Shown here piece by piece: positions 352-63,592 of a stretch of DNA of 64,000 bases; positions within the stretch are counted from its first letter, which is position 1, and each line of letters begins with the position of its first letter. Under the pieces are notes generated by a model, which did not search any database, was not told the origin of the DNA, and saw only the letters and a program-made list of their open reading frames with translations. Origin of the DNA: Chondrosia reniformis (lineage: Eukaryota > Porifera > Demospongiae > Chondrillida > Chondrillidae); assembly GCA_947172415.1 (NCBI GenBank), contig OX359198.1, positions 837,401 to 901,400 of the forward strand. Reading direction: 5' to 3'. A program made the position numbers and the translations under genes.

Positions 352-3300
352 TTAAGTTTTGTTCACTGCTGAGTACAGAATGTCAGCAGACTGAGGAGGA
401 ACTTCAGGTGGAGCTTCACTGTCACTGACTTCATCAGTTGAGGGCTCATAGTTAATCTCATCTGCTGGCATTTCACTTGTAGTTTGTTTTGTTATCTTCT
501 TCACCTTATTTGGTTGAGTATACAATAGTTCAGGATCAGGATTGACTATATACAAATTTTAAAACAAATTTCCTTTATTACATTCGGTATACTATTAGTT
601 ATATGTGTAACATACCAGCTGATCCTGAAGGCTGTTTTTGTGGCTTCCTTTCCTTATTAGGTTTAGCATATAGGAGATCAGGATCATCAACTGTGACTAT
701 GTATGTACACAGAATAATAATAATTCAGCTTCTGATCATGAATTACAAACATGATATATATACAATTTCACACCAGACATTGTTCATCAAAGGATTTTAT
801 ATAAACCTGAAGATTGTCCTGATTTCATATTTGGTTTAGTATACAAGTCTTCCACTTCATTGATTTCTGCATATAGAGACTCTGGATCTTTAACTGTCTT
901 GGACCCTGATTATAAATATAATCATGCATTGATTAAATATAAATAGATATATATACTACGTATATACTATAGGTATAAGCTATGTATGCATAGGTAAGTT
1001 TGGTCTTGTATATATTTGGTTGGGGACTGAAGTCCTATTAAATGCTGATCAATGATTGCCTCCCAGTCATCCAAGGTGACAAAGATTATCAAAAGAACTA
1101 GTTGTTTTCATTCTCCTTTGGACAGTGTGGTAGTGAGTTTGGATGACTGTCTTCAACTTATTAATTGGTCTCATAATAAGTGAAGATCTTAGTGAAAGGG
1201 TTTACTTATAATTACACTAAGTCTATGAAAAGGCTATGATATCAATAATCATTGCATGGTTGCCAATTAATAAGATTTTAGTCTCCCAACCACAATTTTT
1301 CACTTGGTTGGTTATATAAAATGTCTCTCGCTGATTACTTCTATATATATATGTAATCCACTCCTTGAGGGTTTAGGTAAGCAAAAGTATCAAATTTGCC
1401 AAAATATTCATAATCATAATTGATTTAGTTGAGCATCAGCAAAACTAAATATACAATTCAATTATGATTAACATACGCATATACGTACGTACATCTCTCA
1501 TATCCAGTACTTTTTGGGTTGGTTGTCCAGACTAAACGTTGCAATCGGTAACTTGTGACTACCATTTGAACAACCTTCCCACTAGAATGACGTCACCATG
1601 CATGCAGCGATAACCATTAACTTACGATTACCAATTGCAATGCCAGTCTGGATAACTGACCCAAAAAGTATATACTGTATACTTATTTGGTTTTGTGAGA
1701 TTACTTGTATTACAACTCTCTTCTACTTGTCTCATCGTTGGACTCCGGATTTCATCTAGATCACTATAAATATTCCTCACAAAATCATTATTTTGTTTCA
1801 TGTCTTCATATGCCAAATTATCTACGTCTTCTTTTGAAGTTTGAGGTTTCTGATTTTGATCATCAGTCAATTCTGCAAATGCAACTGGTGTGGAGTCTGA
1901 GGATGATTTCCAGTTTCTATAAGTTAACATGGATAGATACTACTAATGAAAGGATACTGACATGCAATCTATATGGTATACGTAGAAAAGAATCTATCAA
2001 AGTATAAAATTAAAGTCCTTAATTCCAAAATCATACTGTGATAGATGTACATATAAGGATTGAATTTGTTGTGTATCATGGGCGCCTGCCAATTATAGTA
2101 GCCTCTGGATATAATGGCTTCCCAGGTAAAATATGAATAGTACCTGATACCTGATATCTGAACCTGACATCTAATATCTGATGGGATATTGCATGCTTTT
2201 CCTATATCCTATTTAACTAACCTTTTTTTTATTTTAACTGCACAAATTGCACAGATACAGACAAATACAATGATTATGAGGCAGAAAAGACTTCCAATGA
2301 CCACTGCTATTATTAGTATCATTGGGTTGTTGTCATTCTTTGGCTGCTTATAATTAGTCATCACTGTGGACATATAACTGCTCCTGCTCTGTGATACACC
2401 TGCATTAAGTCAATTAATCAAGATTGATGTAATGATAGGTATGACAAATATGGAATTAGCGGTACATCTACAACATAATTAGTAACACACCATAATAATA
2501 TAAAGTACTGTAAGTTCCATTTATTGTACATATCAAATATCAAATAGTCCAGGAATCCCTATTATTCACTTCCTGATTAATCTATGTAACTTGACTCACT
2601 TGCAAAAGAATCATATGGACTACTTTCAAAAGGACAGTCTAACAAGCTGGAAGCTACATTAGTATAAAATGGCAAAATAAGATAATAACAAAATGATAGA
2701 AATGTCTAGTATAACCGATAAAAAATATTTTATGGACACTCTGCATATACATACATACTTTTGGACTCTGATACCATAGGATAGCTCATCTCCTTCTGAT
2801 GTATTGATATATCTGCATGTATACACATGACAATTAAGGTAGACCAACAACTGATTAATAGGATAATACTGCATGAACAGGAAGTGAAGTATTTGATCAT
2901 GATCCGTTATATGTATAATATAATATATGTTTTAGTTACTTACCTACAGTATAATTGACTATTGAAGCAGTGTCAGCAGTTAACGTATTATTAATAGTAG
3001 TTATATTTGTTCGTACTGTCACTCCACATGTGTACATTCCAGTATTTGATGATTGAAAAGAAGTTATAGTCAAATTGTAATATCCACTAGTATCTCCCTT
3101 GATACGTATGTTGTGTGAAGAGCTTCTAGTTAGTTCAATCATATCACTAGTCCATCTCTTCCATGCACTTATTCTTGAACAAGCCAATGTTACATTCTCT
3201 CCATGAGTGGCTGTGATTGTTAAATCAGTTGTGTTGCCTGGATATCCTACCAGTACACTAGTTGCACCATTTTCACTAGTCACTGTAACATATTAAAAGA

Positions 3301-3442
3301 GTATAACAAACGTGTCAGAGTAGTCTTACAGTTGGTGTGTCCATGCACATATCTGAAGTAATAAATATATACCTGACAGTGATTTCAGTGTTATAATTGA
3401 GACCAGGCAGCTGTATACTGCAGGTTTCATGTAGTACTGCAT
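352..3442 (-). CDS. R1: Ig-domain receptor, type-A (YxxP + ITIM-like) tail
   Basis: Predicted type I membrane receptor, 426 aa. Exons (minus strand): 3442-3373 signal peptide starting MQYYMKPAVYSC; 3282-2944 Ig domain (Cys in LACSR, Trp in AWKRW, Cys in MYTCGV); stalks 2812-2759 and 2653-2600; 2399-2222 TM (core ILIIAVVIGSLFCLIIIVFV); tail exons 1916-1705, 905-807, 696-616 and 545-352. Splice sites are GT-AG and the total, 1281 nt, is in frame. The Ig domain has several NxT/NxS sequons. Tail tyrosines: LAYEDM, IYSDL, SLYAEI (fits the ITIM consensus), LYTKP, LYAKP, LYTQP, INYEP and terminal ILYSAV (fits the ITIM consensus). Relative to R3 one YxxP-region exon is missing, apparently by a deletion that left a 70-nt intron between 545 and 616. 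Docking of SH2 proteins is inferred from the motifs. Confidence 0.82.
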
Positions 3443-4277: not shown

Positions 4278-6688
4278 TCAAGGACTTTTAAGCTCTTCAA
4301 CTCTTTCATAAGCTGGGGATTGATGCATTTTAATTTCTTCACACTTCTTGCTTTGTTCATCTACTGCTTCATAGATGACTCTCTCTTGTCTCTCAGCATC
4401 TCTCTGCTTCCTCTTATAACAACATAAATAAGTGAGGATTGACCAAATGATGCTGGTAATGAGAACAGAGATTACTGCAGTTGCTATTATTGAGATTGAT
4501 AGGATGGCTCCCAGATCATAACTCACTGATCCAGTGGCTATAGGTACATGTATATTTAATAGAAATCTATAATAAATAATGGTTGAAATATGTCGTATTA
4601 AACGTACTAGAATTTGAACTAACAGAATGATTGTATAACTCATGTTCATTTTTTCAGAAAATATTTATGCAGAATTGAAACACAGACATGACATAACTAA
4701 CCTTTCAATATGGTAAATGATGTTGATATACCTGTACATATATAAACGATAATAATATTATGGGTTAGAGTTAGGGTTAGGGCTAGCAACTAAGCATAAA
4801 CTTTACTCCAACTCAGGATTATACTTCAGCTATATAGTCCAGTAGACTTATAGAAAGACAAGCTGAAAGGGTACTTTGAATTCATGCCAGCGGATATACC
4901 CTGAGAGGGAGTACTAAGAACATCAAGGCCAGAGGAAAGTATAAAGATTTATCTCTTATATGTACATATGTTAAAGGCCTTGGTGCAATGATCTTCAGAG
5001 CTTGCTAGAAGATGGGATTCTAAACCATGTTCACAATACAGAGATCACTAGGGGTTGAGACCAAATAAAAAAGTTGGGACATGTACAAGGTGCATGTGTC
5101 CGACACATGCAGGGATGCATTGTGTATATACTGTATATAGTTATAAAAGACCATTACATACCCAATGCATCAGTTTCTGGAGAAGACTCTCAGGTTAGAA
5201 ACATTCAATCAGAAAATTTAACCCCAAACTGTGGTTTAAGATGCTCAAAGGAGTCAAAAAATGTACAAAATATTAGCGTGACACAATTTGAAGAATCCAT
5301 ATGTTATTATACAGCTATACAGAATATAGAATATGCAGTTTGCATGTATGCCCATTTACATATATAAAGTGATCATGATCTCTGCATAGACATGTATGTA
5401 GTATATGAAAAATCTAAGATACCATTTTCCTACATGCTATATGCCTATTCTGTAAAAAGAGCCTATAGGGGAACTAAACCTAAAGAGAGCTTTAGATGAA
5501 GATACAGTAGTCTTTTCTTCCTTCTTTTCCCTTCTTTCATCTTCTTCTCCACTGGGTCAGACAGCCGTTTCTGGGAATTCCACCCTTCATCAGTGATCCT
5601 GGGAGTCTTTGTCTTTTTCTTTATCTTGATCTTCTGTGAATCCTTGTATATCTTATCTATATATGTATATCTTACTCCAAGGGAATGGCACTGTATATAA
5701 GACCCAATTAAGATGTATATGTAATTTGCACGACCTGTATGGAGTATATACTAACTTAAAGTTAATTCTATATACATCTATTTGTTATACTTTGAATAAT
5801 TATCTATGGAGCTCCCAGAAAGGATTCCAGGATCACTGATAAGGGTGTGTATATGAATATATGTCATTCACATATATACAGTATTACATACTCCATGCAA
5901 GAATATATGTATATATATGTGTATACAATGGACAATTTTATTGTTGCATACATACTTTTGGACTCCGGTACCATTGTATAGCTTATCTCCTTCTGATATC
6001 GATGTATTGATATATCTGCAAAATATTATAGAACTTGTAATTTTGATATAAACTTTGCTTATATAGTGTATATTTAAATGATCTGATAATGAGGGCATTG
6101 TCTACCATATGCAGTGATAATAACTGATTAATACGATATACTGCATGAACAAGTTTTTCCGGAAAGGAAGTTTTAGTTACTTACCTACAGTATAATTGAC
6201 TATTGAAGCAGTGTCAGCAGTTAACGTATTATCAATTTTAGTTATATTAGTTCGTACTGTCACTCCACATGTGTACATTCCAGTATTTGATGATTGAAAA
6301 GAAGTTATAGTCAAATTGTTATATCCTTTACCTTCCTTGATACGTATATTGTGTGAAGAGCTTCTAGTTATTTCATTCATATCACTAGTCCATCTCTTCC
6401 ATGCCATGTTTCTGGAACACATCAAAGTTACATTCTTTCCATGAGTGGCTGTGATTGTTATATCAGTTGTGTTGCCTGGATATCCTACCAGTACACTAGT
6501 TGTACCATTTTCACTAGTCACTGTAACATATTAAAAGAGTATAATAAACGTGTCAGAGGAGTTGTATATATATACAGTTAGTGTGTCCATGCACATATCT
6601 AAAGTAATGAATATATACCTGACAGTGATTTCAGTGTTATAATTGAGACCAGGCAGCTGTATATTGCAGGTTTTGTGTAGTACTGCAT
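4278..6688 (-). CDS. R2: Ig-domain receptor, type-B (two YxxV) tail
   Basis: Predicted 251-aa receptor. Exons: 6688-6619 signal peptide (MQYYTKPAIYSCLVSIITL); 6520-6185 Ig domain (CSR, AWKRW, MYTCGV); 6015-5956 stalk (ISIHRYQKEISYTM); 4731-4702 a 30-nt microexon (SISTSFTILK); 4537-4278 TM plus tail. All junctions are phase 1 and the sum, 756 nt, is in frame. The tail reads VIYEAV, which fits the ITIM consensus [SILV]xYxx[ILV], then AYERV 21 residues on. Basic residues (KRKQRDAERQ) follow the membrane segment. SHP-type phosphatase recruitment would be the default expectation for such a pair; that is inference. A 1.2-kb intron (4732-5955) contains a diverged single unit of the minisatellite that expanded in R5. 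Confidence 0.8.
4732..5955. other. Long R2 intron with repeat-like segments
   Basis: Holds segments recurring in the equivalent introns of R5 and R10: one around 5215-5260 with a CCCAAACTGTGGTTTAAGATG core, and one around 5540-5610 with CAGCCGTTTCTGGGAATTCC-like sequence, which also recurs near 55640. At 4764-4790 there are two adjacent TTAGGG units, too few to be meaningful. No exon compatible with the phase-1 frame was found. Confidence 0.4.
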
Positions 6689-7770: not shown

Positions 7771-10700
7771 TTAAGTTTTGTTCACTGCTGAGTACAGAAT
7801 GTCAGCAGACTGAGGAGGAACTTCAGGTGGAGCTTCACTTTCACTGACTTCATCAGTTGAGGGCTCATAGTTAATCTCATCTGCTGGTATTTCACTTGTA
7901 GTTTGTTTTGTTATCTTCTTCACCTTATTTGGTTGAGTATACAACAGTTCAAGATCAGGATTGACTATATACAAATTTTAAAACAAATTTCCATATTCAG
8001 TTTGAATTCATTACATTTCTAAAAACTGTATACAGAACATTAGACTACTGTAGATTCAAATACTATATATATACTAAACAATGTGCATGTAGGGACCAGT
8101 AAAATTAATGTATTAAATAATTACGTAGAGCCACGTATATAAATTAATTGGTATGCACAATAACATTGGTGGATATTGTGTATGTTATTTTGTACCTGAA
8201 GGTAACTGAGATGATTTCTTTTCCCTGCTAGGTTTATAATTAGCATAATATATTTCAGGATTCTCAAGTGTGACTACATGAATTATTTAATATATGATAA
8301 ACGTATTATCATTGAAATGATTATATATATATAATACTTGCAGCCACATTTAAGTTATAATTAACCTTTTTAAAAGGATCATCTTTTGATTTTTAGAGTA
8401 TCTAAAGACACTGTTTTGTTTTCTCTTTTTGATTGTCAAATGTTTTGACCCTGAGGGTCTTCTTCTTCAGTCTAAAAGTCAAATAATGATCCTTTCAAAA
8501 GATAAGTTAGATGCAGTTATAAGAAATCCTTATTCTATTACATACGGTATGCTATTAGTTATATGTGTAACATACCAGCTGATCCTGAAGGCTGTTGTTG
8601 TGGCTTCCTTTCCTTATTAGGCTTAGCATATAGGAGATCAGGATCATCAACTGTGACTATGTATGTACACAGAATAATAATAATTCAGCTTTTGATCATG
8701 AATTTCATGATATATATACAATTTCACACCAGACATTGTTCATCAAAGGAGTTTATATAAACCTGAAGATTGTCCTGATTTCATATTCGGTTTAGTATAC
8801 AAGTCTTCCACTTCATTGATTTCTGCAAATAGAGACTCTGGATCTTTAACTGTCTTGGACCCTGATTATATATATAATCATGCATTGTTTAAATATAAAT
8901 AGATACACCTACGTATATATATACTAGGTATAAGCTATGCATGCATAGGGAAGTTTGGTCTTGATTGGGGAGTGAAGTCCTATTAAATACTGATCAATGG
9001 TTGCCTCCCAGTCATCCAAGGTGACAAAGATTATCAAAAGAACTAGTTGTTTTCATTCTCCTTTGGACAGTGTGGTAGTGAGTTTGGATGACTGTCTTCA
9101 ACTTATTAATTGGTCTCATAATAAGTGAAGATATGATGGTTCAAGGCTATAATACCTATATAGTCTAGACTGAGAGGTTATAGTGAAAGTATATACTAAG
9201 TCTATGAAAAGGCTAGGATATCAATAGTCATTGCATGGTTGCCAATTAATAAGACTTCAGTTTTCCAACCACAATTTTGGCAAGGTTAACCTACACATAT
9301 GCATAATTGAATTAGTTGATCACCAGCTGCAAAACTAATATACAATTCAATTATGATTATCATCAATGTAACATATAAATATATGCATCCCTCAAATACA
9401 TACATTACGTTTTGAGTCGGTTGTCCAGACCAGACATTGCAATCGGACTGGTAACTTGCAATGTCGACTACCATTAACAAACTTTCCCACTAGAATGACA
9501 TCACCATGCATACGGCAATAACCTTTTACAATTGCCAATTGCAATGTCCAGTCTGGATAACTGACCCAAAAAGTATATATATACTTTATACTTATTTGGT
9601 TTTGTGAGATTACTTGTATTACAACTCTCTTCTACTTGTCTCATCGTTGGACTCCGGATTTCTTCTAGATCACTGCAAACATTCTTCACAAAATCATTAT
9701 TTTGTTTCATGTCTTCATATGCCAAATTATCTACGTCTTCTTTTGAAGTTTGAGGTTTCTGATTTTGATCATCAGTTAAATCTCCAAATGCAACTGGTGC
9801 GGAGTCTGAGGAAGATTTCCAGTGTCTGTAAGTTAACATGGATAGATATTACTAATGAAAGGATATACTGACATGCAAGATCACCTTAAAATTGTGGTTT
9901 TTTGTATATATGTAGATGGAAATTAGAAAAACTACCAAAGTAAACTTATATAATTCCAAAATCAAACTGTGATAGATGTGCATATAAGGAATGAATTTGT
10001 ATCGTACCATGCACATTCATGGGTAATTGCATGCTTTTCCTATATCCTATTTAACTAACCTTTTTTTTATTTTAACTGCACAAATTGCACAGATACAGAC
10101 AAATACAATGATTATGAGGCAGAAAAGACTTCCAATGACCACTGCTATTATTAGTATCATTGGGTTGTTGTCATTCTTTGGCTGCTTAGTTATCATGATA
10201 GAAATGTCTATAGACCCAATATAATATAGTTTACATGATTTTATGTACACTATGGATATGCATATACGTACATACTTTTGGACGCTGGTATCATTGTATA
10301 GCTCATCTCCTTCTGATGTATTGATATACCTGCACGAGTACACATGTATATACATACGTATATGTGCAATTAGAGTAGACCTTATAATTCAGAATGCTAG
10401 ATGCAAAATATGTTATAACTTGTAATTTGATATATATTTATATATATGATCTGATAATGGTCTACCATATATGCAGTGATATATACTGCATGAACAAGTT
10501 TTTACAGGAAGTGAAGCATTTTTTTGTTATTGGCAGTTTAGTCGCTGAAGTCCTTTGCTTTTTTATCCATTTCATCCTGGGCTGCCAAAATGCCATGGTG
10601 TAATGCAGTATAGCCCATTGCCTTGGATTTCTACTGAAATGTAACTGTACTTAGTCTCAACCATATATATATAATATTTAGGTTATATGAATGTATATAC

Positions 10701-11235
10701 ATTATACAATATACGTACATATGTTCTATATGCAGAGGTCAAAACACTTACCTACATTATAATTGACTATTGAAGCAGTGTCAGCAGTTAACGTATTATT
10801 AGTAGTAGTTTCATTAGTTCGTACTGTCACTCCACATGTGTACATTCCAGTATTTGATGATTGAAAAGAAGTTATAGTCAAATTGAAATATCCTTTACCT
10901 CCCTTGATACGTATGTTGTGTGAAGAGCTTTTAGTTAGTTCATTCATATCACTAGTCCATCTCTTCCATGCAATTGTTCTTGAACACACCAATGTTACAT
11001 TCTCCCCAATAGTGGCTGTGATTGTTATATCAGTTGTGTTGCTTGGATATCCTACCAGTACACTAGTTGCACCATTTACACTAGTCACTAAAACATAATA
11101 ATAAAGAGTATGTGTCATGCAGAGCAGGCATTTGATATGTCATATATTGTATATAAATTTACCTGATGACAGTGATTTCAGTGTTATAATTGAGACCAGC
11201 CAGCTGTATATCGAAGATTTCGTGTAGTACTGCAT
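7771..11235 (-). CDS. R3: Ig-domain receptor, type-A tail
   Basis: Predicted 424-aa receptor. Exons: 11235-11163 signal peptide (MQYYTKSSIYSWLVSIITL); 11087-10752 Ig; 10329-10276 stalk; 10207-10060 TM; tail 9825-9614, 8861-8763, 8656-8576, 8273-8196, 7964-7771. The sum, 1275 nt, is in frame. The tail keeps LYTKP, LYAKP, LYTQP, INYEP and terminal ILYSAV. The motif that is SLYAEI in R1 reads SLFAEI here, so its tyrosine has become phenylalanine. The 8273-8196 exon carries YYANYKPS in place of a plain YAKP. The intron between the Ig and stalk exons holds an ankyrin-like remnant (10510-10620). Confidence 0.82.
10510..10620 (-). pseudogene. Ankyrin-repeat-like remnant inside an R3 intron
   Basis: On the minus strand a short open frame reads GYTALHHGILAAQDEMDKKA and then stops. 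The G-TALH pattern is typical of ankyrin repeats. A decayed copy lies in the matching intron of R8 (28930-29045), so the insertion predates the block duplication. It is too short for certainty and could be chance. Confidence 0.3.
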
Positions 11236-12724: not shown

Positions 12725-15331
12725 TCATTTCTGTTCAACTGTTGCATAAGCTGGTGATTGATGCATTTTAACTTCTTCATATTTCTTATCTTGCTCGCCT
12801 ACTACTTCATAGATGTCTCTCTGTTGTCTCTTTAAGTCTCTTCTCTCATTCTGTTTCTTCTTGACACAGCAGTAGTAAGTGAGGATTGACCAAATGATAC
12901 TTGTAATGAGAACAGAGAAGACTGTAGACACTAACACTGAGAGTGATATGATGGCTTCTTGAGATAGAGTGGATCCTATATACATGTAGTTTAATTTGTA
13001 TCAAAATGATACCAATATATAAAGTATACCTGTTTCATAGAATGAAATTATAATGTTACTTACTTGAAATGACTATCTCTGGTGAAGACGATGGAATGAC
13101 TACACAAGTATATAAATGCAATGAGGAGTTAAGATTTAAATGGAGTATGATAAATGCCCTCACTATCAAGTAGCAAAAGTCAGAATCTAAGAGCCTAATT
13201 AGGACTGGTATATACGTAGGATCAGATAACATCTATATGCATATACGTATACTTACCAGCTACAGTGTAGAATGTCAGATATGTAATATTAGGTATCGGT
13301 CCTACTATACAAGTATATGTTCCAGCATGAGTTGAACTGAAGTGTGAGATGGACAATTTCCTCACTGCTGCTCCTCCTCCAGTGGTAACTACCTCTCCTG
13401 GAGTGGGAGTGACCACACTACCTGCACTGTACCAGTTCTTGGGTGTACCGCTCCTCTCACACTCCATCTGTACTGGTTGACCAATAGTAGGTGTCACCAT
13501 GACATGACATGACATCAGTTGTGTCACCAATCCTTCCTACTCTAACAGTCAGTGTTGGAAGAGAGGCTGAGGAGGAGGGAATGTGATCCTTAACTGTCTG
13601 TGTAGTTGGTGATGGTGTGAGAGTGTTTGTTAAGCCATTAACTTTAAAATGCTTGTATCCCATCACATCACTAGTATTACTCCAGCTGAGTTTACAGCCA
13701 TCACTGTAATGTTGTATGTTGTACCATTCACTAGTCCTGTCAAGTTGTAGTAGATGAGGTTACTGGTTGTGTTGGTTGTGTTGGAACCATACTGGATGAT
13801 ATAGTGTAGTTCTCCATTGGGGTCTCTTGGAGGTATCCAGTTCAGTTCAACACCATCTTGAAACACTCTTGTGAATGTGAGGTGTCTTGGTTTAGTTGGT
13901 ACTGTACTCAGATTATATAATTAACTGACAAGATTAACACAGGGAATCAGGTAATATATATACGTATTCTCTGTGCATTCTACCTACGTATATATATAAT
14001 AATAATAATACGTAAATACATGTACATACAAAACAATCTTGACTATATTTGTATTTACATACAGTACATACCACTTGACTGAGCTCTATAAGTAGCCTCA
14101 TTTGGTTTTGAACTGATATTTTGTCCACTAATAATCCAAACTTTTACCCTGTACAGTCCACCTGGTCTACTGGCAGAGAAACCTCTCTACGTATACCATA
14201 ACTAGATACTGGAACATGTCCAACCTCAATTGGTACTCCTAGATCTAGACGATCATATCTTGTGACATATTTACGTGGACCAGTTCCACCACTAATTCTG
14301 ATCTTAATAGATTCCTCTTTAGTAAAATCTTAGGTATTGGTAAGGTATCTGTAAAAGTATACATATATATACATAATAGTATTGGTATATTTTTCTAGTT
14401 AATTATTTACTTACTATTGGATAAGAATATGTTGATGAAATGCCTTTCTCTAAATATACTGTCAGCACAATAGTAGTCATCACTTATATTTGATGTTCTA
14501 ACAAAGAGTGTAGCTGTTGGACCATTTTCACTTTTATATACATCTTCACTTGGTGATGTTGATAGAGCATATCCAGGTCTAACCCATGTAACATTACCAC
14601 CATTGTATGATCTACACTGTATCTCTCCTATCTCTTGGTCTCCTGCTATTTCTGTGATGTTAGTAATGACAGCTTCATGATCAAGGATTCTGTTCTGACT
14701 AGTAACTATAAAACCTGATACTGTAGTATATATGGAGGGATGGGACTTGTCTTACATGTGTTATACTGTACTAGTGTTATGACAACTCACGATCACTTGG
14801 TGGTACAGCAATGAATGTAAATACAGCACTCTTATTGATACCATCAGCCAGTACAGTACAGGTATAGTTTCCTCCATCACGTGTAGAGATAAGAGGGATT
14901 TTCAAGATATGACTTTCACTATTACATGTTCCATGAGGGCAGGTCCATCTGTAGGTAGTTTGTACTCCATAAGGTATTCCAGTGACTCTACAGGCTAGAA
15001 TAACAGTTGTCCCCAGTTGTACAGTCTCACCAGAATCCAGTGTTGTGTTGTGAGTGTATCCATCAATATGTGATTCTACTTTATGTTCAGCAGTTCTAAC
15101 TATATAGGAACATTAACTATATAATATGTATATACAATGTTAGATTTGGGGAGAATTCATAGTTGAATTCTGTTGTTTATTCAAGTGTCTATAATCTATA
15201 TATATAGATATCAGATATGTCAGTCTATATATATAGTCAGTCAGTTTAATTTTTCTTCATATTTACTTACCATTTTTTGTACCAAATAGAAACAGAAATA
15301 AATAGAAAAATATCCACAAACTAGAATCCAT
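12725..15331 (-). pseudogene. R4: multi-Ig/Fn3 receptor, type-B tail, several frameshifts
   Basis: Layout: 15331-15271 signal peptide (MDSSLWIFFYLFLFLFGTKN); 15099-14791 Ig1 (LACRV, YRWTC, YTCTV); 14705-14415 Ig2 (IQCRS, VTWVRP, YYCADS); 14348-14072 Fn3-like module; 13901-13257 Fn3 plus Ig3 in one exon; 13099-13064 linker; 12975-12725 TM and tail (DIYEVV, AYATV). Compared with paralogue R9: 14348-14072 is 11 nt shorter (losses near 14325 and 14167), one base is lost near 13678 in the Fn3 part, and there is a 10-nt ATGAC-type insertion near 13505. Each shifts the frame, so no full-length product is expected unless these exons are skipped or the assembly is wrong. The signal, Ig1, Ig2, linker and TM/tail exons are open. 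Confidence 0.72.
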
Positions 15332-33194: not shown

Positions 33195-33225
<31 letters not shown>

Positions 33226-42622: not shown

Positions 42623-42661
42623 GTAATTATACTTGTAATTTTAACAATGAACCTATTTTAT

Positions 42662-43410: not shown

Positions 43411-43673
43411 ACTACCGTACTCCCTGATTAGTGCTCTTTTATTTGTTATTATATATGTATATATATAGGACCCCCAGGTGGACCAGCCAAATGAGCTGAT
43501 GGGGCTTCCTATTCAAATGATAAATAATGAAATGAAAAATGAAATCATGAAAACATGCATGTTATGTATCATTTGACCTGTATATACTTACCTGACAGAG
43601 ATTTCAATACTAGTGTTATAGTTACAATCAGCCAGCTGCATATTGCAGATTTCATGTAGTACTGCTTGATCAT

Positions 43674-46791: not shown

Positions 46792-49780
46792 TTAAGTTTT
46801 GTTCACTGCCGAGTACAGAATGTCAGCAGACTGAGGAGGAACTTCAGGTGGAGCTTCACTGTCACTGAGTTCATCAGTTGAGGGCTCATAGTTAATCTCA
46901 TCTGTTGGTATTTCACTTGTAGTTTGTTCGGATGTCTTCTTCACCTTATTTGGTTTAGTATACAAATGTTCACGATTCTCAGTTGTGATTGTGTCTAGTA
47001 TATACAAAATGAATTGTTAAATCTATTAGAGTGTATTATACCTACAGTATTATAGAAATTTGCGTGAATATATACGTAGGTATTATACATATAATACCTA
47101 TATGTTGCCTGGAAGATTCATTCTTGACCTTGATAGGCGTATCATACAAGATTTCAGGTATGACTACATAAAGTATGTCATATATATATGTAGACTTTAC
47201 CAATGAGCACTTAATTTCAGATTATTATAATTATATACCTGAAGTTAATCCTGGTTGCATTGTTTCCATATTTGGTTTAGAATACAACTCTTCTAGATCA
47301 TTTATTTGTGAATATGGAGACTCTTCAACTGACTTCATATTCTCCACTAAATGTATATACAAAGTTGAGCTGTCATGTGAATATGTACGTATATATATGT
47401 GTATTTATTTAGACTCAGTATGGTGTATTGATTGCATGGCCAATATTTATTAATTACAGAGAATTATTAACTATTGTATACATATATCATTAATTGATGT
47501 ATTTTTAATTTACTTGTATGATGACTTTCTTCTGGTCTATTGTGAATGTTCTTTACAAAATCATAATCATTTATTTCTTTGTCCTCAAAGGTAGTAACTT
47601 GCAGATTATTTTTCAAAACTTCATGATTAGCTTCCTGATTTTGATCATTATTAGACAATCCTGTAAATGCAATTTGCGTGGAGTTTGAGGACATCCTTTG
47701 ATTTCTACATAATAATGTGACAACATTTGTACATTCAGTACATGTGTCTTTTAAATATAGTATACATAATATGCATGAATATAATGAAAGAATTACCTCT
47801 TCTTGTTTCTACATACAACTGTTACAATACTGCAAATTATTGTAATTATAAGACAAAGAAATACAGCTCCAATAACCACTGCTACTATCATAGTCCATGG
47901 CCATTTGTCACCATTGCTTGTAGGCATCAAGGTGATATCTTTATACGGAATAATAACTTTAAAAGAAAGAATTGCAAAACACTTTAGAAATAATATACAT
48001 AATACCTCACAATCCATTACAAACTTTATGTAATAATTTGAAAATTAAAGGGAGAAAATTTTAATGTTATAGTATACTAGTACAGTGAGTTGCTTATTCT
48101 TCACAGGTACACTTTTGAAATCTGTACTTGTTGACTCTAAACAGCCACTTGTACTTAAAGAAAATGGTACACCTGTAGCTATAAATAAGTTAAGGTGGCT
48201 GAAGTGAGTGGGAAGGGAAGGCAACCAAAGAGAGTAGGCCAAAGAGAGCAATCATATTACAGTTGTATCTCTATAATTTGAGCTGTTCCTATATATAATC
48301 TTTTGTCTATATATGTTCATGATACTCTTTGCTACATGTACATATACTTACGTATATAAAATGTAATAAATATTAAGAAAATAACTGATTTTTTTATACA
48401 ATGCATTGCATTTCAATCTCAACACTCTATATAACTCTTTTACATGGTTAATAATGCTAGACCTTATATAATTATATCTATATATATAGCTGTTTGTGTG
48501 TATATAGCTTTCTTTTTATATAATAGTTATAATTCTGATATTAGATACACAAAATTAAACCTCATATATTGTTAGCTTACCAGATATACTTACACGACTT
48601 TCATTAAACATAGAGGTTGGTTTATTAGACTCCATCTCAACTAATATATCTATAATTGTGTATACGTATTAAAACAAGTTATAGCATTGGAGTAATGTAA
48701 CTATATAATGTAGACGGTAATTACCTACATTACAAAAATTTAATAAATTTTTGAATCAGTGCAGAGTTTAAACAAAGTGAAATGTTCTCATCTACATATA
48801 TCCGTACACACTATTTCCACAGCAACGAACTAATAATGGGGACATTATACAGTATGAACTTCATCTCGGACATCCACCAGAATATAATTACTCTGCCTAG
48901 GCCTTGTATTATATATATTCTGGCTACCGTCCTTACCTTAATACATATAATGGTAATACATATATTTGTGCTTAATATGGTAAATTACTCTGCCACTTTT
49001 TGCCACAATAAACAATTTAATAGAGATGTTCTCACTTGGTCTTTAATAGTAATATAGTTCTTTGCAAAAGTTCATGATTGTGAAGTTATTATTTTTAACA
49101 GTTTGCATAAATTATATCTGATGTACATGTTATATATTATTCTTTTTTACACTATTAATTAATGTATATACTTACTTACCTACTGTATAATTACATATTG
49201 AAGCATTATCTCCAAATAACATTCCACAAATATTTCCTTTTCGTAGTGTCACTCCACATGTGTACATTCCAGCATTTGATGATTGAAAGGAAGTTATAGT
49301 CAAAAAATAATATCCACTATCATTTCCCTTGATACCTAGGTTACTTGAAGAGTGTCTATCTCTAGATATTTCACTCATATCACTAGTCCATCTCTTCCAT
49401 GCACTTGTCCTTGAACAAGCCAACGTTACATTCTCCCCAATAGTGGCTGTGATTGTTATGTCAGTTCTACTGCCTTGATATCCTACTAATATTCTATAGC
49501 TATTTGTATCATTATCACTAGTTGTACATGCATCATTATCACCAGTTACTGTAGTATTAAAAGGGAATATACCCATGCCAGTGCAAAAACTGGAAAGATA
49601 TGTACTTCATTATGTCCACTCATATCAGAATTTATCAAACATGCATAATTTGTATTATGTATCCTTTGACCTACTTACCTATCCTTTGTCCTACTTACCT
49701 GACAGAGATTTCAGTACTAGTGTGATAGTTATGATCAGCCAGCTGTATATTGCAGATTTCATGTAGTACTGCTTGATCAT
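46792..49780 (-). CDS. R13: Ig-domain receptor, type-A' tail
   Basis: Predicted 386-aa receptor, the intact counterpart of R11. Exons: 49780-49699 signal peptide (MIKQYYMKSAIYSWLIITIT); 49548-49180 short DNDACTTSDND segment plus Ig (LACSR, AWKRW, MYTCGV); 47938-47797 TM; tail 47704-47514, 47346-47239, 47163-47098, 46994-46792. The sum, 1161 nt, is in frame. Tail motifs: SPYSQI (fits ITIM), LYSKP, LYDTP, LYTKP, INYEP and terminal ILYSAV. The tyrosine that is LYATTF in R6 is absent (LQVTTF). A proline-rich APPEVPPQS precedes the terminal motif, as in the other type-A tails. Confidence 0.82.
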
Positions 49781-50858: not shown

Positions 50859-51267
50859 TTAGGTTAATATCTCTCCAACTGCTGCATATGCTGGAGATTG
50901 ATGCATTTTAATTTCTTCAAAATTTCGAATTTGTTCATCTACTGCTTCATAAATGTTACTTTGTCGTCTCTCAGCATCTCTCTGTTTCCTCTTAAAACAA
51001 CAATAATAAATGATGATTGACCATATGCTTGTAATGAGAACAGAGAAAACTGCAGTTGCTACTATTGAGATTGATAGGATGGTTTCATGACTTATTGATC
51101 CATTAGCTAAACACATGGAAAATCTAATATAACTTGTAGGTATATTATAATGTAAAATATTTTGATATATACGTATATATACACATAATAAAAGAATGGT
51201 AGATTTAGAAAACATTGATATGTGCACAGTTATTCACTTGTTGACATGGAGTCTGATGTTGATGAAG
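50859..51267 (-). CDS. R14: orphan type-B TM/tail without ectodomain
   Basis: Microexon 51267-51238 (30 nt, SSTSDSMST) and TM/tail exon 51106-50859 are both open and in phase 1. The tail has IYEAV and AYAAV. There is no Ig exon up to R15's tail at 53875; only the 5' UTR-like exon (donor after 52641) and a decayed signal exon near 52570. It is the only orphan with both exons undamaged. R15's stalk exons end in phase 1, so splicing from R15 into this tail would keep frame; this is untested. Confidence 0.6.
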
Positions 51268-53874: not shown

Positions 53875-56800
53875 TTAAGTTTTGTTCACTGCCAAGTGCA
53901 GAATATCAGCAGACTGAGGAGGAACTACAGGTGGAACTTCACTGTCACTGACTTCATCAGTTGAGGGCTCATAGTTAATCTCATCTGCTGGCATTTTACT
54001 TGTAGTTTGTTTTGTTTTCTTCTTCACCTTATTTGGTTGAGTATACAACAGTTCAAGATCAGGATTGACTATATTCAAATTTTAAAACAAATTTCCATAT
54101 TCAGTTTGAATTCATTCATTTCTAAACTACATGTAATACAGACTACTGTAGATTCAAATACTATAAATATATATCATCGACTAAACCATGTGCATGCAAG
54201 GACCAGTAAAATTAATGAATATTAGAGCCATGTATATTAATTGGTATGCACAATAACATTGGTGGATATTGTGTATGTATTTATGTACCTGAAGGTATTT
54301 CAGATGATTTATTTTCCCTGTTAGGTTTAGCATAAAATATTTCAGTATTCTCAGTGATTGTGTCTATATACACATTATATACAAATTTGTAGAAAAATGA
54401 AATATACTAATGTATACATATAGAAAGATCAATATATGTTATAATATATACGGGTATTAAGCAAATTTAAACTTGTTATATATACAAATTTTAAAGCACA
54501 TTTCTATTCAGTTTGAATTTTTTACATTTCTATATAATCTAAGCTATATACGTATATAGAACATTATACTCTGGATGAAAATACTATATACGTATATACT
54601 AAACAATGTACATACAGGTACCAGTAAAATTAATGTAAATTTAGAACCATGCAAGCAACATTAATTGGTATGCACAATAACATTGGTGGATATTGTGTAT
54701 GTTATTTTGTACCTGAAGGTAACTGAGATGATTTTTTTTCCTTGTTAGGTTTAGCATAAATGCTTTCAGGATTCTCAAGTGTGACTGCATAAATTGTATA
54801 TGCATGTAATATGATATCTGATATAAAACTAGTCAAGTGACCAAAAGATGAATCACTAGAAGGAATCAATTTCTGGTTGCTATTTTTGTTTGAAATTCAT
54901 ATACATATCTAATGATTTTCCACATCTTGCATAGCTTTTTCAAGGCATTGTATAAATTTCTTTTTCTAACCATGAGTATTTCATACATGTACTTCTAATG
55001 TTAATTAATAATCTAGAGAGAGAGAGTTTGAGTATGCAATAGTATATGTATACCTGATGTTTGTCCTGATTGCATTGTTTCCATATTTGGTTTAGCATAC
55101 AACTCTTCCAGATCATTTATTTGTGAATATGGAGACTCTTGAACTGCCTTAATATTTACTTCTAAATTTATATTTACATGAAAAGTCATAAATGTATTAT
55201 GCGCATTTCTTGGTACAACATTATCATATATGTACATTTATACATTTTATATATACGTATAATATAAATGACTAAATATTCACTTGCACTATGGCTTTGT
55301 TCTGGTTCATTGTGAATGTCTTTTATATTATCATAATTTATTTCCTTTTCCCCAAAGGTCAAATTGTCCACTTCATTTGAAAATGGAGGTTTCTGATCAT
55401 CACTAGACAACCCCACACCAGTTATATATGCATCATCATTAGACTGGCCTGTATATACAACTGGTGTGGAGTTTAATGATGTCTTTTTACTTTTGTTTCT
55501 GTAGATTTGAAAATAATAATAATAATAATAATAATTTTCAATTAATTATAATATGCATGAACAATAATATATATAATATGCCAAGGATTCAGAAAAGATC
55601 AAGAAAATGACAAAGATTCCCAGCTAAGGTCACAGATGAAGGGTGGAATTCTCAGAAACAGCTGTCTGGCCCAGTGGGGCAAAAAAGAAAGAGAAGACTC
55701 CATCCAAACCTCTCTCCAGGTTTAGTTCCCTAAAGGCTTTACATAATTTATTACAGGGTAGGCATAGTATGTGGGTAAAAGCGTATTAGATTATTCATGA
55801 ATACAATGAAAGAATTACGTAGATATACGTATACCTTTTGCTTTTGCTAACTGCTGCAATTATACAAACTAGAATTGTAATTATAAGACAAAGAAGAACA
55901 GCTCCAATGGTCACTGCCATAATGATGATCAAAGTGTCACCCATTGGATCATTTCTTGTAGGACTTGAGGTGTTACCCAGCACTAGTAGATCACTGCTTG
56001 TAGGACTTGAGGTGTCACCCAGTAGATCACTGCTTGTAGGACTTGAGGTGTCACCCATTAGATCACTGCTTGTAGGACTTGAGGTGTCACCCAGTAGATC
56101 ACTGCTTGTAGGACTTGAGGTGTCACCCAGTAGATCACTGCTTGTAGGACTTGAGGTGTCACCCAGTAGATCACTGCTTGTAGGACTTGAGGTGTCACCC
56201 AGTAGATCACTGCTTGTAGGACTTGAGGTGTCATCCAGTAGATCACTGCTTGTAGGACTTGAGGTGTCATCCAGTAGATCACTGCTTGTAGGCATTGAGG
56301 TGTCACCCAGTAGATCACTGTTTGTAGGACTTGAGGTGTCATCCAGTAGATCACTGCTTGTAGGCATTGAGGTGTCACCCAGTAGATGACTGCTTGTAGG
56401 ACTTGAGGTGTTCTCTTTCAATTGCAGAATATAACACATTTATAGCATCCATGATTTACACACATATAATATATTTACTTACTTTTTAAAGATGCACTAA
56501 AGAAGGGTGTATTTGCTAGCTTTATATGGCTCATCTCACTTGAATAGAGTGATATACCTAATTACAGTACATATGCATTCATAAATACATGTATATACAT
56601 ATATACATACAATGCTTGTACGTACATTGTCAGATAAACATGAGTGTATATATATTTTATTAATTCTTCATTTACTATTTACCTATTGTATAATTGACTA
56701 TTGAAGCAGTGTCAGCAGTTAACGTATTACTAATAGTAGTTATATTTGTTTGTACTGTCACTCCACATGTGTACATTCCAGCATTTGATGATTGAAAAGA

Positions 56801-57479
56801 AGTCATAATCAAATTGTAATATCCACCCATGGTACTTATACTTGCCAATGGATAGCTTATATTTATTTCATTTGTATCACTAGTCCATCTCTTCCATGCC
56901 CTTGTTCTTGAACACACCAACTTTACATTCTCCCCAAGAGTGGCTGTGATTGTTATATCAGTTGTGTTGCTTGGATGTCCTACCAGTAAACTAGTTGTAC
57001 CAGTTACACTAGTCACTGAAGGAAATGCATAAATACAAGCAAAGTTATTCATAGAAACTATTAAGATAAATTGTTTATATTTAAAGACCATGCATGCTTT
57101 TATGGGTCTGTTGATTGTCTATATACATATATACATACTATATAGATTTCATAGACCATTGCAATTAATGGCATGAATAATATCTGCATATAATGTTTTA
57201 TGAACAAAAGATTCATGAAAAATCTAAAATACCATGCTATGCCTGTAATATTCATGTATTATTTGTATTTAGGACTTCTGGATGATTTATATGAAATGTA
57301 AAAATGAGAATATAATTGAGAAACCTAAAAATTATACAGAAAATCTATATAAGTAGATTTGTATTGTATATCTCACCACCTGATCTTATTAGAAATCCAC
57401 ATAACTGTAACGTTACAGCTCCCAATATCAACTTGAAAACTTCACATTTTGCATGAAAACACTTCATGTTTGAATTCAT
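53875..57479 (-). CDS. R15: Ig-domain receptor with mucin-like stalk repeats, type-A tail
   Basis: Predicted 584-aa receptor. Exons: 57479-57377 signal peptide (MNSNMKCFHAKCEVFKLILG); 57015-56683 Ig (KLVCSR, AWKRW, MYTCGV); 56557-56483 stalk (ISLYSSEMSHIKL); 56414-55835 repeat stalk plus TM (core LIIIMAVTIGAVLLCLIITI); tail 55498-55284, 55161-55054, 54784-54713, 54363-54289, 54068-53875. The sum, 1755 nt, is in frame. Tail: VVYTGQ, AYITGV, INYDNI, SPYSQI, LYAKP, IYAKP, FYAKP, LYTQP, INYEP. The terminal motif is ILHLAV: its tyrosine is His, so the conserved ITIM-like site is lost. The stalk repeats are Ser/Thr/Pro-rich and probably O-glycosylated. Confidence 0.8.
55960..56415 (-). repeat. Coding 36-bp minisatellite (LLGDTSSPTSSD) in R15 stalk
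   Basis: About twelve 36-bp units encoding LLGDTSSPTSSD with variants (LLDDTSSPT, LLGDTSMPT, TSSHLLG, SDLMGDT). They sit directly before the TM segment in the same exon. No equivalent is seen in the other units. Confidence 0.95.
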
Positions 57480-59213: not shown

Positions 59214-62200
59214 TTAAGTTTTGCCCACTGCCAAGTACAGAATGTCAGCAGACTGAGGAGGAACTTCAGGTGGAGCTTCAAAGTCACTGACTTCATCAGC
59301 TGAGGGCTCATAGTTAATTTCATCTGCTGGTATTTTACTTGTAGTTTGTTTTGTTTTCTTCTTCACCTTATTTGGTTGAGTATACAACAGTTCAAGATCA
59401 GGATTGACTATATACAAATTTATATATAAAACCAGTTTCTATTCAGTTGGTTATTTCATATATATACAGAACATTAGACTACTGTAAATTCAAATACTAT
59501 ATATGAAAGAGTACTGATTTTTTGCATTCAAGGACCAGTAAAATTAATGTATATATAATTAGAGCTATGTACAGTATAATTTAATTGGTATACACAATAA
59601 CATTGTGGATATTGCAGTATTTATGTACCTGAAGGAATTTCAGATGATTGTTTTTCCTTGTTAGGTTTAGCATAAAAGGTTTCAGGATTCTCAAGTGTGA
59701 CTGCATGAATTATATACATAGTACGATATATATATATTATATTATATACCAAATCAGTCAAGTGTCAAAGGATTCTCAGTAATATCATATGTAGTTGTCT
59801 AGTTTGGAATAATTCTATTCTAAACACGTGCACATTAGATAACTTATAGAGTTTTTGTGTATAGTATATACGTATAAACAATATTATCATTGTAATGACT
59901 ATATTTATACTTGTGCATGTGTCACATTTAAGTTATAATTTACATACGTAGTAAGTTTTTAAAGGATCATCTTTTGACTATTAGAGTGTCTAAAGACACA
60001 GTTTTGTTTTTCTTGTCTTGATTGTAAGATGTTTTGACCCCAAGGGTCTTCCTTAGTCTGAAAGTCAAAAGATGAGCCTTTCAAAAGATAAGTTTGACAC
60101 AGTTAGAAGAAATCCTTATTCTATTACATACAGTAATTATGTGTAACATACCAGCTGATCCTGAAGGCTGTTTTTGTGGCTTCCTTTCCTTATTAGGCTT
60201 AGCATATAGGAGATCAGGATCATCAACTGTGACTATGTATGTACACAGAATAAGCTTTGAATTACATGATATATACTTACATACAATTTCACAACATACG
60301 TATACATAGTGTTCATATGGGCATTTGTATATATACTGTACGTACCTGAAGTTAGTCCTGATTGCATTCTTTCCATATTTGGTTTAGTATACAAGTCTTC
60401 CATTTCATTGATTTGCAATTGCGCATATGGAGGATCTGGATCTTTAACTGTCTTAGAGCCTGGTTATATATACATATAATTGTGCAGTGATTAAGTATAA
60501 ATAGATGTTTAGGCAATGTGCATAGGTCTTGTATTTAGTTGGGGACTGAAGTCCTATTAAATGTCGACCAATGATTGCCTCACAGTCATCTAAGATTATC
60601 AAAAGAACCAGGAGAGCTGCTTTCACCTTTTGGATAGTATGGCAGAGAGTTCGCAATTGGATGACTGTCTTCAACTACCAATAATAAACTTTCCCACTAG
60701 AATGATGTTACAATACATGCGGTAATAACCATTTACAATTACCGATTGCAATGTTTAGTCTGGATAGCCATCCCAAAAAATACTGTATACATATTTGGTT
60801 TTGTGGGATTACTTGTATTACAACTCTCTTCTACTTGTCTCATCGGTGGACTCCGGATTTCATCTATTTCACTGTAAACAAAATCATAATTTTGTTTCTT
60901 GTCTTCTGCCAAATTATCTACGTCTTCTTTTGAAGTTTGAGGTTTCTGATTTTGATCATCAGTCAATTCTGCAAATGCAACTGCAACTGGTGTGGAGTCT
61001 GAGGATGATTTCCAGTTTCTATATATAAGGGGTATATATAAGGGCCTTAAGGGGTTTCCTAGGGGTAGGAATACATCACCCTATCACAGCCTTAGAGACA
61101 GAAAGTAATTGGATTCCTGCAAGATGGAGAGTTAGGATGAAAGTAGTGTTGTACTGGAGAAAGCTGTTAATCAGGCCAGATTCTGTTAAAAGAGTAATCG
61201 ATTACATTTTAGCTAATAATATAAGGGTTGACTGGGTCTCAAAGATTGTTAGCATATTTGATAAGTTGAAACTAGGGGACCCCAGAACTGTTATGTTTTT
61301 GTCCTTTTGTATTACTGTATTTTACAGGGTGCCTAGAATAGTAGCCACTGGCTAAAGGCTTTCCCTGTTTAAATAAGATTACCATACCAAACCAAAAATT
61401 TGTAATCCATGTGGTTTATGTTTATAGATGGAAATTAGAAAAGAATCTGGATCTACCAAAGTAAGATTTAAGTCCTTAATTCCAAAATCATACCGTGATT
61501 GATGTACATATAAGGATTGAATTTGTTTCAAATTATCTCTATCATGGGTGCATGAATGCCAATTGTAGTATATATATAGCCTCTGATTAATGGTTCCCAG
61601 GTAAAATAAGAATATATAGTATACATTATACATGCAACCTGATACCTGATGGGAAATTGCATGCTTTTCCTATTTAGCTAACCTTTTTCTTATTTTAACT
61701 GCACAAATTGCACAGATACAGACAAATACAATGATTATGAGGCAGAAAAGACTTCCAATGACCACTGCTATTATTAGTATCATCGGGTCCGGGTTGTTGT
61801 CATTCCTTGGCTGCTTAATCATCACCTTGGACATATACCTGCTTCCACTCTGCTCACTTGACACACCTGAATATATTATGTAATGATAGGTATGTTGTGG
61901 TTGTTGTTGTTTATATGCAATAGAAGCTGGGTTGTGGGAGAAGAGGGAAATCCCCATTAATCAGGTTTTTCCAATTATCCAGTTTATTGCTAATTAGCTA
62001 TTTTAATTTGTGAGGGAACTTGCTGTGCCCAATTTGTATGAGTTCAAAACTTTTAAAATCTACAGTCCGGTATATAATCCCTATTATTCACTTCCTGATT
62101 AACCAACTTATATACTGTATGTAATTTGACTCACTTGCAACAAAATCATACGGACTAGAAAAGATGGATTGAAGTTCTGTGAGTGCACTTTCCAAAGGAA

Positions 62201-63592
62201 CCACGTCAGAGTTTGACAAACTAGGAGCTACAGTAATAAAAAATAATGAGAAAATTTATATATGCACACTCTTCATATATATATATACACATACGTTTGG
62301 ACTCTGGTACCATTGTATAGCTCATCTCCTTCTGATGTATTGATATACCTGCATGAGTAACAATGTGTGTACATAAACAATAGCTATATAAGCGGTAAAT
62401 ATTTTTTGTATTATATATTATTTCCCTATATCATATTACGGAATTATATAAGAAAGATATTATAGATGAGAATATGTATATACGTACGTACATATGTATG
62501 TATAAAAGTATACACAAGGCACTGTATTGTAATTTGGCTTTAGAATAAAATCCCTTATATATAAACCAATCAAAATATGAAAGTATATACAATTAATATA
62601 TGCGTTTAAGTATTGCATGTTACTGCAAAAACATATATATATATATAAAATTAATAAACGCTTAACCTCACTTATTGTATAGTTGGTAATAGCTCCAGTT
62701 ATAACGTCCTCTGGAGAGTTTGAGGTAAATTCTGTAACTCCACAAGTATATGCTCCATTATTTGTAGAATCAAAGGAAGCTATTTTTAGACATTTTTTAA
62801 CACTGCTTACACTAACAGCAATATTGTTTTTTAATTCAGAATCTGCTGTCCATACTTTCCATGCTAATGACCTTGAACAGATCAATTCTACATTCTCTCC
62901 AAGAGTTGCAGATATTGTAGTTTCTGTTGGACCATTGGGGTCTCCAACAGTTACTTGACCATTCTCAGCTTACGTACATAATAGGAGAGCATGTATACTG
63001 TTATCACCATGCCACATATAAACTGTATAATATTATGTATATAGAGAGCAAGAGCAAATTTTTGAAAGGAAAATTGCTAAGTTATTTTTAATCACATCTG
63101 TAACAAGAAAAACTGGAAAAACGCTCAATTATGTATATATCTAATTAAGCTGTAACTCTTTATTTAGCTAGGGCCCAGATTTAATTTAATTGTTTTGAAG
63201 AACATTTCAGCAGGATTTGGAGAAAATAGCCATATGTCCACCTTTTGTATTTTAAATTGTATATAATCAACTTAATATTTTTATAATGGACAGGTGCACG
63301 CGCAGATGAAAGTAAGAGAGAGGAATAATTTTGGCTCAGACTTCTGACAAAATATGCAAAATAATTAATTATATAATTTATATATTATATAATTACTCGG
63401 CCTCTGGCTCATATTATTATAGTTTGGCTATATAATCTTCACCTCTGGGCTACAACTATTATACATACATCTAATATAATGTACACAACGGTGACTATAA
63501 TAATATTATATACTTACTTCCAGCTAGACATTGCAAGACGAAAATAACACCCAACCACAGGACAGAGTTCACATAGTAACCTTTAAAAAGCT
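59214..63592 (-). CDS. R16: diverged Ig-domain receptor, type-A tail; start not resolved
   Basis: Exons: hydrophobic leader ending at 63528 (SVLWLGVIFVLQCLAG); 62968-62672 Ig (LICSR, AWKVW, YTCGV); stalks 62348-62295 and 62227-62135; TM 61866-61683; tail 61018-60813, 60459-60346, 60232-60152, 59700-59629, 59407-59214. From the Ig exon on, all phases agree. The leader has no in-frame ATG before an upstream stop, so the first exon is either further right or frame-damaged. The Ig is the most diverged single-domain ectodomain here, yet the tail is nearly that of R8: VYSEI, PYAQL, LYTKP, LYAKP, FYAKP, LYTQP, INYEP, ILYLAV. This mismatch fits exchange of the tail with R8-type genes. Confidence 0.72.
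61028..61375 (+). mobile_element. Unclassified insertion in the R16 intron
   Basis: Replaces a short stretch present in the matching R8 intron (about 28097-28150). A 72-codon plus-strand frame (61137-61355, starting MKVVLYWRKLLIRPDSVKRV) has no domain I recognise. No terminal repeats are evident. Confidence 0.4.

Follow-up and report, generated by a model that had tools for sequence, protein, structure and literature searches.

Does a sponge carry a complex of paired immunoglobulin (Ig) receptors, near-identical on the outside and different in their signalling tails, and what would such a complex recognise? The question is raised by a 64,000-nucleotide stretch of chromosome 10 (7.66 Mb) of the kidney sponge Chondrosia reniformis (C10:837,401-901,400; contig OX359198.1 of assembly GCA_947172415.1), hereafter the window. 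A sequence-only reading of its letters had described a sixteen-unit array of Ig receptors with two alternative tails and, on the conditional guess that the host was a sponge, which it is, a candidate immune or self-recognition complex. We made an exon inventory of the window by tblastn with exon queries and searched the whole genome (117.38 Mb, 15 contigs). The tandem complex is real, partly decayed, partly constrained and recombining, and consists mostly of single-Ig receptors with two swappable tails. We consider it rather probable that it is a polymorphic, fast-evolving paired-receptor complex whose likeliest role would be the contact recognition of self and non-self cells. Its reading as a set of paired receptors, from anatomy and comparison, appears well supported; immune or self-recognition use would be the likeliest function, and an allorecognition role is plausible.

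All receptor exons detected in the window lie on the minus strand, head to tail, as had been proposed. They include 16 tail modules, eight of class A and eight of an unrelated class B, so that the earlier count of sixteen held for the tails; it failed for the ectodomains, which number 13 (11 single-Ig exons and two Iga-Igb-FN3-Igc sets, in units 8 and 13), and the window therefore has 13 candidate genes, not 16. The existence of two ectodomain types, and of three B tails without an Ig exon (units 3, 5 and 10), contradicts the single exon plan first described. A search with the unit 14 Ig recovered the remaining single-Ig exons of the window at E values of 3e-22 to 9e-63, which excludes chance, and among the 149 matches listed in a whole-genome search, exons of this kind more than 40% identical to unit 15 were found on C10 only. 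The array had been thought to end at window position 63592; the cluster in fact extends about 14 kb beyond the window, as far as C10:915,019, and gains there two Ig exons, two B tails and additional matches to A tails. Some copies are damaged, with stops in the tails of units 5 and 8 and, in unit 8, an additional Igb stop and a broken FN3 match. The features are given below in window coordinates, followed by those beyond the window; TM denotes a membrane-span exon, and copies outside the window are labelled x1 to x3 in the text.

62673..62954, minus strand, unit 1: divergent single-Ig exon, 46% identical to unit 15
59214..61813, minus strand, unit 1: TM_A exon and A tail, YxxP exons, terminal ILYLAVGKT followed by a stop
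56681..57016, minus strand, unit 2: Ig exon
53875..56411, minus strand, unit 2: stalk of Ser/Thr/Pro-rich 12-aa repeats (55934-56411), TM_A and A tail; ITIM tyrosine changed to His (ILHLAV)
50868..51267, minus strand, unit 3: B2 tail, no own Ig exon; candidate 30-nt Ser/Thr mini-exon (51238-51267) and TM exon with YEAV..YAAV (50868-51107)
49178..49774, minus strand, unit 4: signal-peptide exon and Ig exon
46792..47909, minus strand, unit 4: TM_A and A tail
44678..44917, minus strand, unit 5: B2 tail, no own Ig exon; TAG stop past the membrane span
41948..43667, minus strand, unit 6: signal-peptide exon and Ig exon
39883..41028, minus strand, unit 6: TM_A and A tail
38506..38987, minus strand, unit 7: signal-peptide exon and Ig exon
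35659..35925, minus strand, unit 7: B1 tail (TM, VIYEAV, YERV)
31510..33921, minus strand, unit 8: Iga-Igb-FN3-Igc and B tail, damaged (Igb stop, broken FN3 match, TAA in the TM exon)
29137..29639, minus strand, unit 9: signal-peptide exon and Ig exon
26088..28562, minus strand, unit 9: TM_A and A tail
23836..24075, minus strand, unit 10: B2 tail, no own Ig exon
22001..23110, minus strand, unit 11: signal-peptide exon and Ig exon; in-frame 8-aa GGNDTCTT repeats ahead of the Ig (22335-22741)
20368..21525, minus strand, unit 11: TM_A and A tail
18830..19318, minus strand, unit 12: signal-peptide exon and Ig exon
16798..17061, minus strand, unit 12: B1 tail
12731..15079, minus strand, unit 13: Iga-Igb-FN3-Igc ectodomain and B tail with YEVV/YEEV/YATV
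10750..11235, minus strand, unit 14: signal-peptide exon and Ig exon
7771..10184, minus strand, unit 14: TM_A and A tail
6183..6688, minus strand, unit 15: signal-peptide exon and Ig exon
4281..4538, minus strand, unit 15: B1 tail
2942..3442, minus strand, unit 16: signal-peptide exon and Ig exon
352..2346, minus strand, unit 16: TM_A and A tail
C10:908,819-909,157 and 914,702-915,019: further single-Ig exons beyond the window
C10:902,015 and 903,807: further B tails beyond the window
C10:906,086 and 912,043: further A terminal exons beyond the window
C10:901,638: decayed A exon beyond the window

The 13 single-Ig exons (11 in the window and two beyond it) all have open frames, each closed by a phase-1 donor as read by eye, and the exon is of phase 1-1 wherever both ends are readable. 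A signal-peptide exon of the MQYYTKSSIYSWLVSIITLKSLSSG type precedes it in 9 of the 11 window units (the starts of three were checked), and a candidate phase-1 acceptor, also read by eye, stands before all 9 TM_A and 10 TM_B exons examined. The Ig exon of unit 15, which has a B tail, is 88, 85 and 83% identical to those of A units 16, 14 and 9, respectively, in agreement with the earlier description of near-identical ectodomains with different tails. The receptor domain has the Ig fold and the Cys-Trp-YxC signature; a simple scan for that pattern did not pick up the single-Ig exons. Profile scores for unit 15 were 27.2 for I-set (cut-off 23.7) and 20.7 for V-set (cut-off 26), and V-set is matched weakly by 24 of 27 members; of the two, I-set gives the better fit. 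A structure model reached a mean pLDDT of 41 with 27 close sequences and of 71.7 when four distant Ig domains of the window were added to the alignment. No Hydractinia Alr structure was among the best 50 rows of either of two fold comparisons, a result that excludes nothing. Tandem repeats lie next to this domain in one unit and before the membrane span in another: about 17 in-frame 24-bp copies, each with one cysteine, on the N-terminal side of the unit 11 Ig, and about 13 copies of 36 bp (12 aa) in the stalk of unit 2.

The division of the tails into two unrelated classes was confirmed. YxxP sites can serve in adaptor docking, and ITIM and ITAM are the names of signalling motifs. Class A tails are built from small exons, mostly with one YxxP each (two to four per unit among the placed exons), and end in DILYSAVNKT or close variants. 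Under the pattern [SIVL]xYxx[ILV], a terminal ITIM (ILYSAV or ILYLAV) is found in seven of eight A tails, the exception being the ILHLAV of unit 2. Class B tails consist of a single exon encoding the membrane span, YEAV (or YEVV) and YERV, YAAV or YATV; all eight have at least two YxxV sites, and the ITIM pattern also fits three of them (VIYEAV in units 7, 12 and 15). Pairs of YxxV/I sites at the ITAM-like spacing of 6-12 occur in 2 of the 10 B tails of chromosome 10 (units 8 and 13, unit 8 being broken) and in 8 of the 11 examined from elsewhere.

The same tails occur on another ectodomain type. Further copies of Iga-Igb-FN3 lie on C8 (7.56-7.85 Mb) and C13, and its FN3 is found on C1, C10 and C14 as well; both A and B tails are attached to this second type on chromosomes 8, 13 and 1. 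We counted 28 second-type FN3 among the 71 FN3 matches listed (26 at E <=4e-32, and two partial ones at C8:7,696,021 and 7,844,684). Within 1.5 kb downstream of these lie eight A-type tails, one partial A-type tail (C8:7,713,397) and nine B-type tails, the remaining ten FN3 being unassigned (six on C14, three at C10:1.12-1.18 Mb, and C8:853,932, which has a weak B-like match only). Among the six copies shown of the terminal YSxVNK motif on C8, the tyrosine is kept in five and the strict ITIM pattern in two. A tree of the 14 units in which all three domains were found, where the A label of c8_7713 stands for a partial YxxP match, has A and B tails mixed: three changes are needed, two of them forced by well-supported branches, and a single B clade is rejected (approximately unbiased test, AU p 0.00014). 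For the single-Ig type, the tree and the selection analysis used 11 of the 13 exons, unit 1 and x2 being left out as too divergent, and its three B rows need three changes, which is the maximum. Since A and B are mixed in both trees, ectodomain and tail have recombined more than once. A second large tandem array lies at C13:1.65-2.35 Mb, where among the matches listed FN3 exons cover the span and tyrosine-phosphatase exons occur at 1.65-1.96 Mb.

Recombination signs are also present within the Ig exons, for which the PHI test gave p 0.001 (the floor of 1000 permutations) at 5- and 10-site windows for 11 copies, and p 0.001 at the same windows for the eight close copies. A second set of receptors comes from a protein collection clustered at 90% identity, where near-identical second-contig copies could hide inside clusters (20 of the 25 Ig clusters hold one sequence and five hold two). 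The collection also holds open reading frames (ORFs) of the window's own contig, given there as 8,106,400 bases against 7,657,449 for C10, an unexplained discrepancy. On a contig of 1,552,588 bases, the list has 15 Ig ORFs, of which 14 match the primary Ig exons best at 70-94% identity; the fifteenth is the outlying x2 exon at 98% (75/76 over the full ORF). A B-tail ORF of this contig agrees with unit 15 at 122 of 123 residues, 37 of them intron-derived, and its ORF P0009 agrees with unit 9 at 52/53 over signal exon and intron and at 90% over the Ig. We infer that this contig is probably the other haplotype; the deposit of an alternate haplotype (GCA_947172445.1), stated in the genome note (PMC12181767), agrees with this. 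Two further Ig ORFs lie on contigs of 623 and 563 bases, of unclear origin. The refuting condition set by the sequence-only reading, a lack of variation between individuals, is touched on by just one second contig, the presumed haplotype, and two very short ones, whose sequences speak against that condition. In a mosaic test of the 15 ORFs with full exons (14 from the 1,552,588-base contig and P0004 from the 623-base contig), two-part mosaics of primary copies fitted better for P0004, P0014, P0021 and P0023 (p 0.002-0.047, uncorrected).

Pooled ratios of nonsynonymous to synonymous change (dN/dS) were 1.00 for the 11 Ig exons, 1.03 for the A-tail exon A5 and 0.63 for B tails (8 of the 10 on chromosome 10, units 8 and 13 being left out). 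Despite a ratio near 1, the 11 Ig exons contain no stop, against about 14.7 expected without constraint over a tree length of 1.09, so residues change under a conserved reading frame. When loops were delimited by the canonical Cys/Trp/Cys, a definition chosen after the alignment had been inspected, six close copies had a dN/dS of 3.67 (1.57-16.4) for loops and 0.65 (0.28-1.79) for framework, and 11 copies had 1.78 (1.12-3.03) and 0.61 (0.39-0.98). Repeated with loops from the structure model, the comparison gave 2.29 (0.83-10.5) against 1.09 and 1.51 (0.85-3.20) against 0.85, respectively, with a permutation p of 0.05 for both. These values are suggestive of amino-acid change concentrated in binding-type loops, as modelled. 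Ordinary adhesion receptors under neutral birth and death, with Ig divergence as drift and tail swapping as a by-product of tandem duplication, would also yield pooled ratios near 1 in Ig and A5 exons and several decaying copies such as units 5 and 8. We hold this explanation to be very unlikely, given the 14.7 stops expected in the 11 Ig exons and the none observed, and given that the Ig ORFs of the second contig diverge far more than the same contig's tail, intron and outlying Ig.

The B2 tails of units 3, 5 and 10 and of x3 follow the A tails of units 2, 4 and 9 and of x1. Alignment of these four A-to-B2 intervals revealed no ectodomain exon, which rules out an ectodomain of their own for the B2 tails; the intervals hold nothing more than a candidate Ser/Thr mini-exon of 30 nt shortly ahead of the membrane exon, with a different acceptor in unit 10. 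A shared signal-peptide remnant was also sought in the intervals and rejected (E 0.002 in unit 5, no ATG in unit 3, a stop in unit 10). Differences between B2 exons are mostly silent, with dN/dS of 0.16 (3/10), 0.08 (3/x3) and 0.28 (10/x3) and one-sided Fisher p of 0.002, 0.0007 and 0.02, from 9-14 differences per pair in pairs that are not independent; the stop-bearing B2 tail of unit 5 is looser (dN/dS 0.38-0.51, Fisher p 0.08-0.15). An exon that is kept yet unable to form a receptor alone is expected to splice elsewhere, and the upstream Ig exon fits in frame. B2 tails 3 and 10 may serve the upstream gene as alternative tails, and the simplest reading would make an A tail and the Ig-less B tail trailing it one phase-compatible gene with two alternative sets of last exons. 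Alternatively, B tails 3, 5, 10 and x3 could be remnants of genes stripped of signal peptide and Ig, a serious possibility to which we give somewhat less than even weight. The stop and weaker constraint of unit 5, the weak signal-peptide-like stretch in its interval (not conserved in the others) and the differing mini-exon acceptor of unit 10 would all suit remnants, but the low dN/dS (0.08-0.28) and intact frames of units 3, 10 and x3 would be unlikely in them, and the A-then-B2 arrangement is seen four times.

If alternative tails are carried to their full consequence, the locus would be a complex for sponge allorecognition whose individual genes each supply both members of the pair, one polymorphic Ig exon being spliced to either an ITIM/YxxP or a YxxV tail, with tail cassettes on at least two ectodomains and several chromosomes. 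In this complete form we find the proposal unlikely; were it true, ITIM-type paired self-recognition signalling would extend beyond Cnidaria and chordates to Porifera. The nearest parallel to the A/B2 alternative-tail reading is FcoR, the fester co-receptor family of Botryllus, whose splicing is described as swapping motifs in the portion available of a paper that also reports ITIM-type motifs in the Hydractinia and Botryllus candidates (PMC12065747). FcoR differs in being an Ig-sushi-Ig-Ig protein encoded beside a fester-family partner, whereas the sponge receptor has a single Ig and no known partner.

Candidate signalling partners were found in the same genome. SH2 matches are abundant (63 at E <=1e-5), and on the minus strand of C3 they alternate with protein tyrosine phosphatase (PTP) matches in the order SH2 (9,116,351), SH2 (9,113,984), PTP (9,112,923), SH2 (9,110,350), SH2 (9,108,757) and PTP (9,106,746). 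These matches are partial and span 9,106,746-9,116,518, two of them reading across stops that are probably introns, and the array looks like two consecutive SHP-type phosphatase genes. With two SH2-SH2-PTP arrangements on C3, ITIM-to-SHP signalling is possible in this sponge. Among the other matches, C9:1,355,380-1,360,658 has open frames of 355-395 aa with several SH2 matches in each, an unusual arrangement. At C6:0.35-1.87 Mb and 3.07-3.15 Mb, many Ig exons 27-40% identical to the window Ig are interspersed with tyrosine-phosphatase exons; Ig receptor tyrosine phosphatases have apparently undergone a large tandem expansion there.

The typical product of the complex would be a small type I membrane protein in which a signal peptide is followed by a single I-set-like Ig, a short stalk, one membrane span and finally the tail. 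The Ig, intact, fast-changing and with signs of recombination, would be the binding part, its ligand perhaps the same receptor on a neighbouring cell, and the tail would set the output. Class A would dock adaptors at its several YxxP sites and an SHP-type phosphatase at its terminal ITIM; class B would signal through two or three YxxV sites, with ITAM-like spacing in some copies. Through recombination and duplication, Ig sequences would keep passing from one backbone class to the other, and similar specificities could thereby be read by either output. That the receptors sense microbes or symbiont products instead of other sponge cells seems to us rather unlikely. Ig exons are expanded elsewhere in the genome, and pathogen recognition, too, is generally known to yield diversifying, recombining tandem receptor families. 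Yet no sequence feature indicates microbial ligands, and two tails per ectodomain type suit contact signalling at least equally, judging from what is generally known of paired receptors.

Several observations weigh against a contact-recognition complex of paired receptors. The haplotype status of the second contig is itself deduced; one-breakpoint mosaics reached p <0.05 in only 4 of 15 ORFs, uncorrected for 15 tests, leaving 11 unsupported; and PHI for all 11 copies gave p 0.21 at the 20-site window. The loop excess of amino-acid change varies with the loop definition (3.67 vs 0.65; 2.29 vs 1.09), and the A-tail exons are without purifying selection, as the A5 ratio of 1.03 indicates. The tail label of the second ectodomain shows some clustering (an equally low value arose in 27-36 of 500 shuffles), and most inner branches are weak, 2 of 11 being starred in the second-ectodomain tree and 1 of 8 in the single-Ig tree. 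Finally, the B tails have no canonical ITAM (mostly V, not I/L) and the single-Ig B units have lost the middle tyrosine, which makes an activating B output a guess. What stood of the proposed paired-receptor or allorecognition cluster is its paired-receptor architecture, which extends beyond the first description to tails swapped on two ectodomain types, to Ig exons that diverge far more on the second contig than one tail, one intron and one outlying Ig exon, and to signs of recombination.

Near-identical ectodomains with different tails, tandem copies and recombination characterise vertebrate KIR/LILR and other paired receptors, and the sponge complex resembles KIR/LILR in these respects of architecture only, differing in that its second tail carries its own YxxV sites. 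For sponges, aggregation factors were reportedly named by Grice in 2017 as a candidate allorecognition system. They are cited as such in the passages available of PMC12065747, according to which there is no conservation among the candidate allorecognition proteins of sponges, cnidarians and ascidians; they form an extracellular proteoglycan-type complex (PMC11999971, in part), unlike Ig receptors with SH2-docking tails. The likeness to Hydractinia, also an early-branching animal, is that a single complex houses a family of Ig-superfamily receptors bearing ITIM/ITAM-type motifs; excerpts of two accounts give 41 Alr genes in its allorecognition complex and report a recognition role for Alr1/Alr2 (PMC11999971, PMC12065747). 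The sponge genes have mostly one I-set-like domain, and the two were likened by description, not by sequence alignment. Sponges distinguish self from non-self grafts, as stated in the part available of PMC5450542, a paper with no occurrence of immunoglobulin, receptor or tyrosine, and Ig I-set counts are given for seven sponges in the available part of PMC12465263. Among the records listed in literature searches, no title or abstract opening pointed to a sponge paper describing a locus of this kind, and the available passages on allorecognition named no sponge self/non-self receptor. With its ITIM-type tails and a probable second haplotype that has diverged strongly, the mapped Ig-receptor complex would be a defined target for genotyping in relation to graft outcome, and could reveal whether sponges share the two-tail logic seen in natural killer receptors.

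Three minor features share the window with the receptors. A 30-bp minisatellite of seven copies with 99% matches lies at 17646-17856, and a plus-strand tRNA gene at 37448-37520 (Rfam RF00005, 55 bits). Fragments with a YLDD motif, presumably reverse-transcriptase-like, lie at 11964-12227 and 30861-31037, within two duplicated blocks around units 13 and 8.

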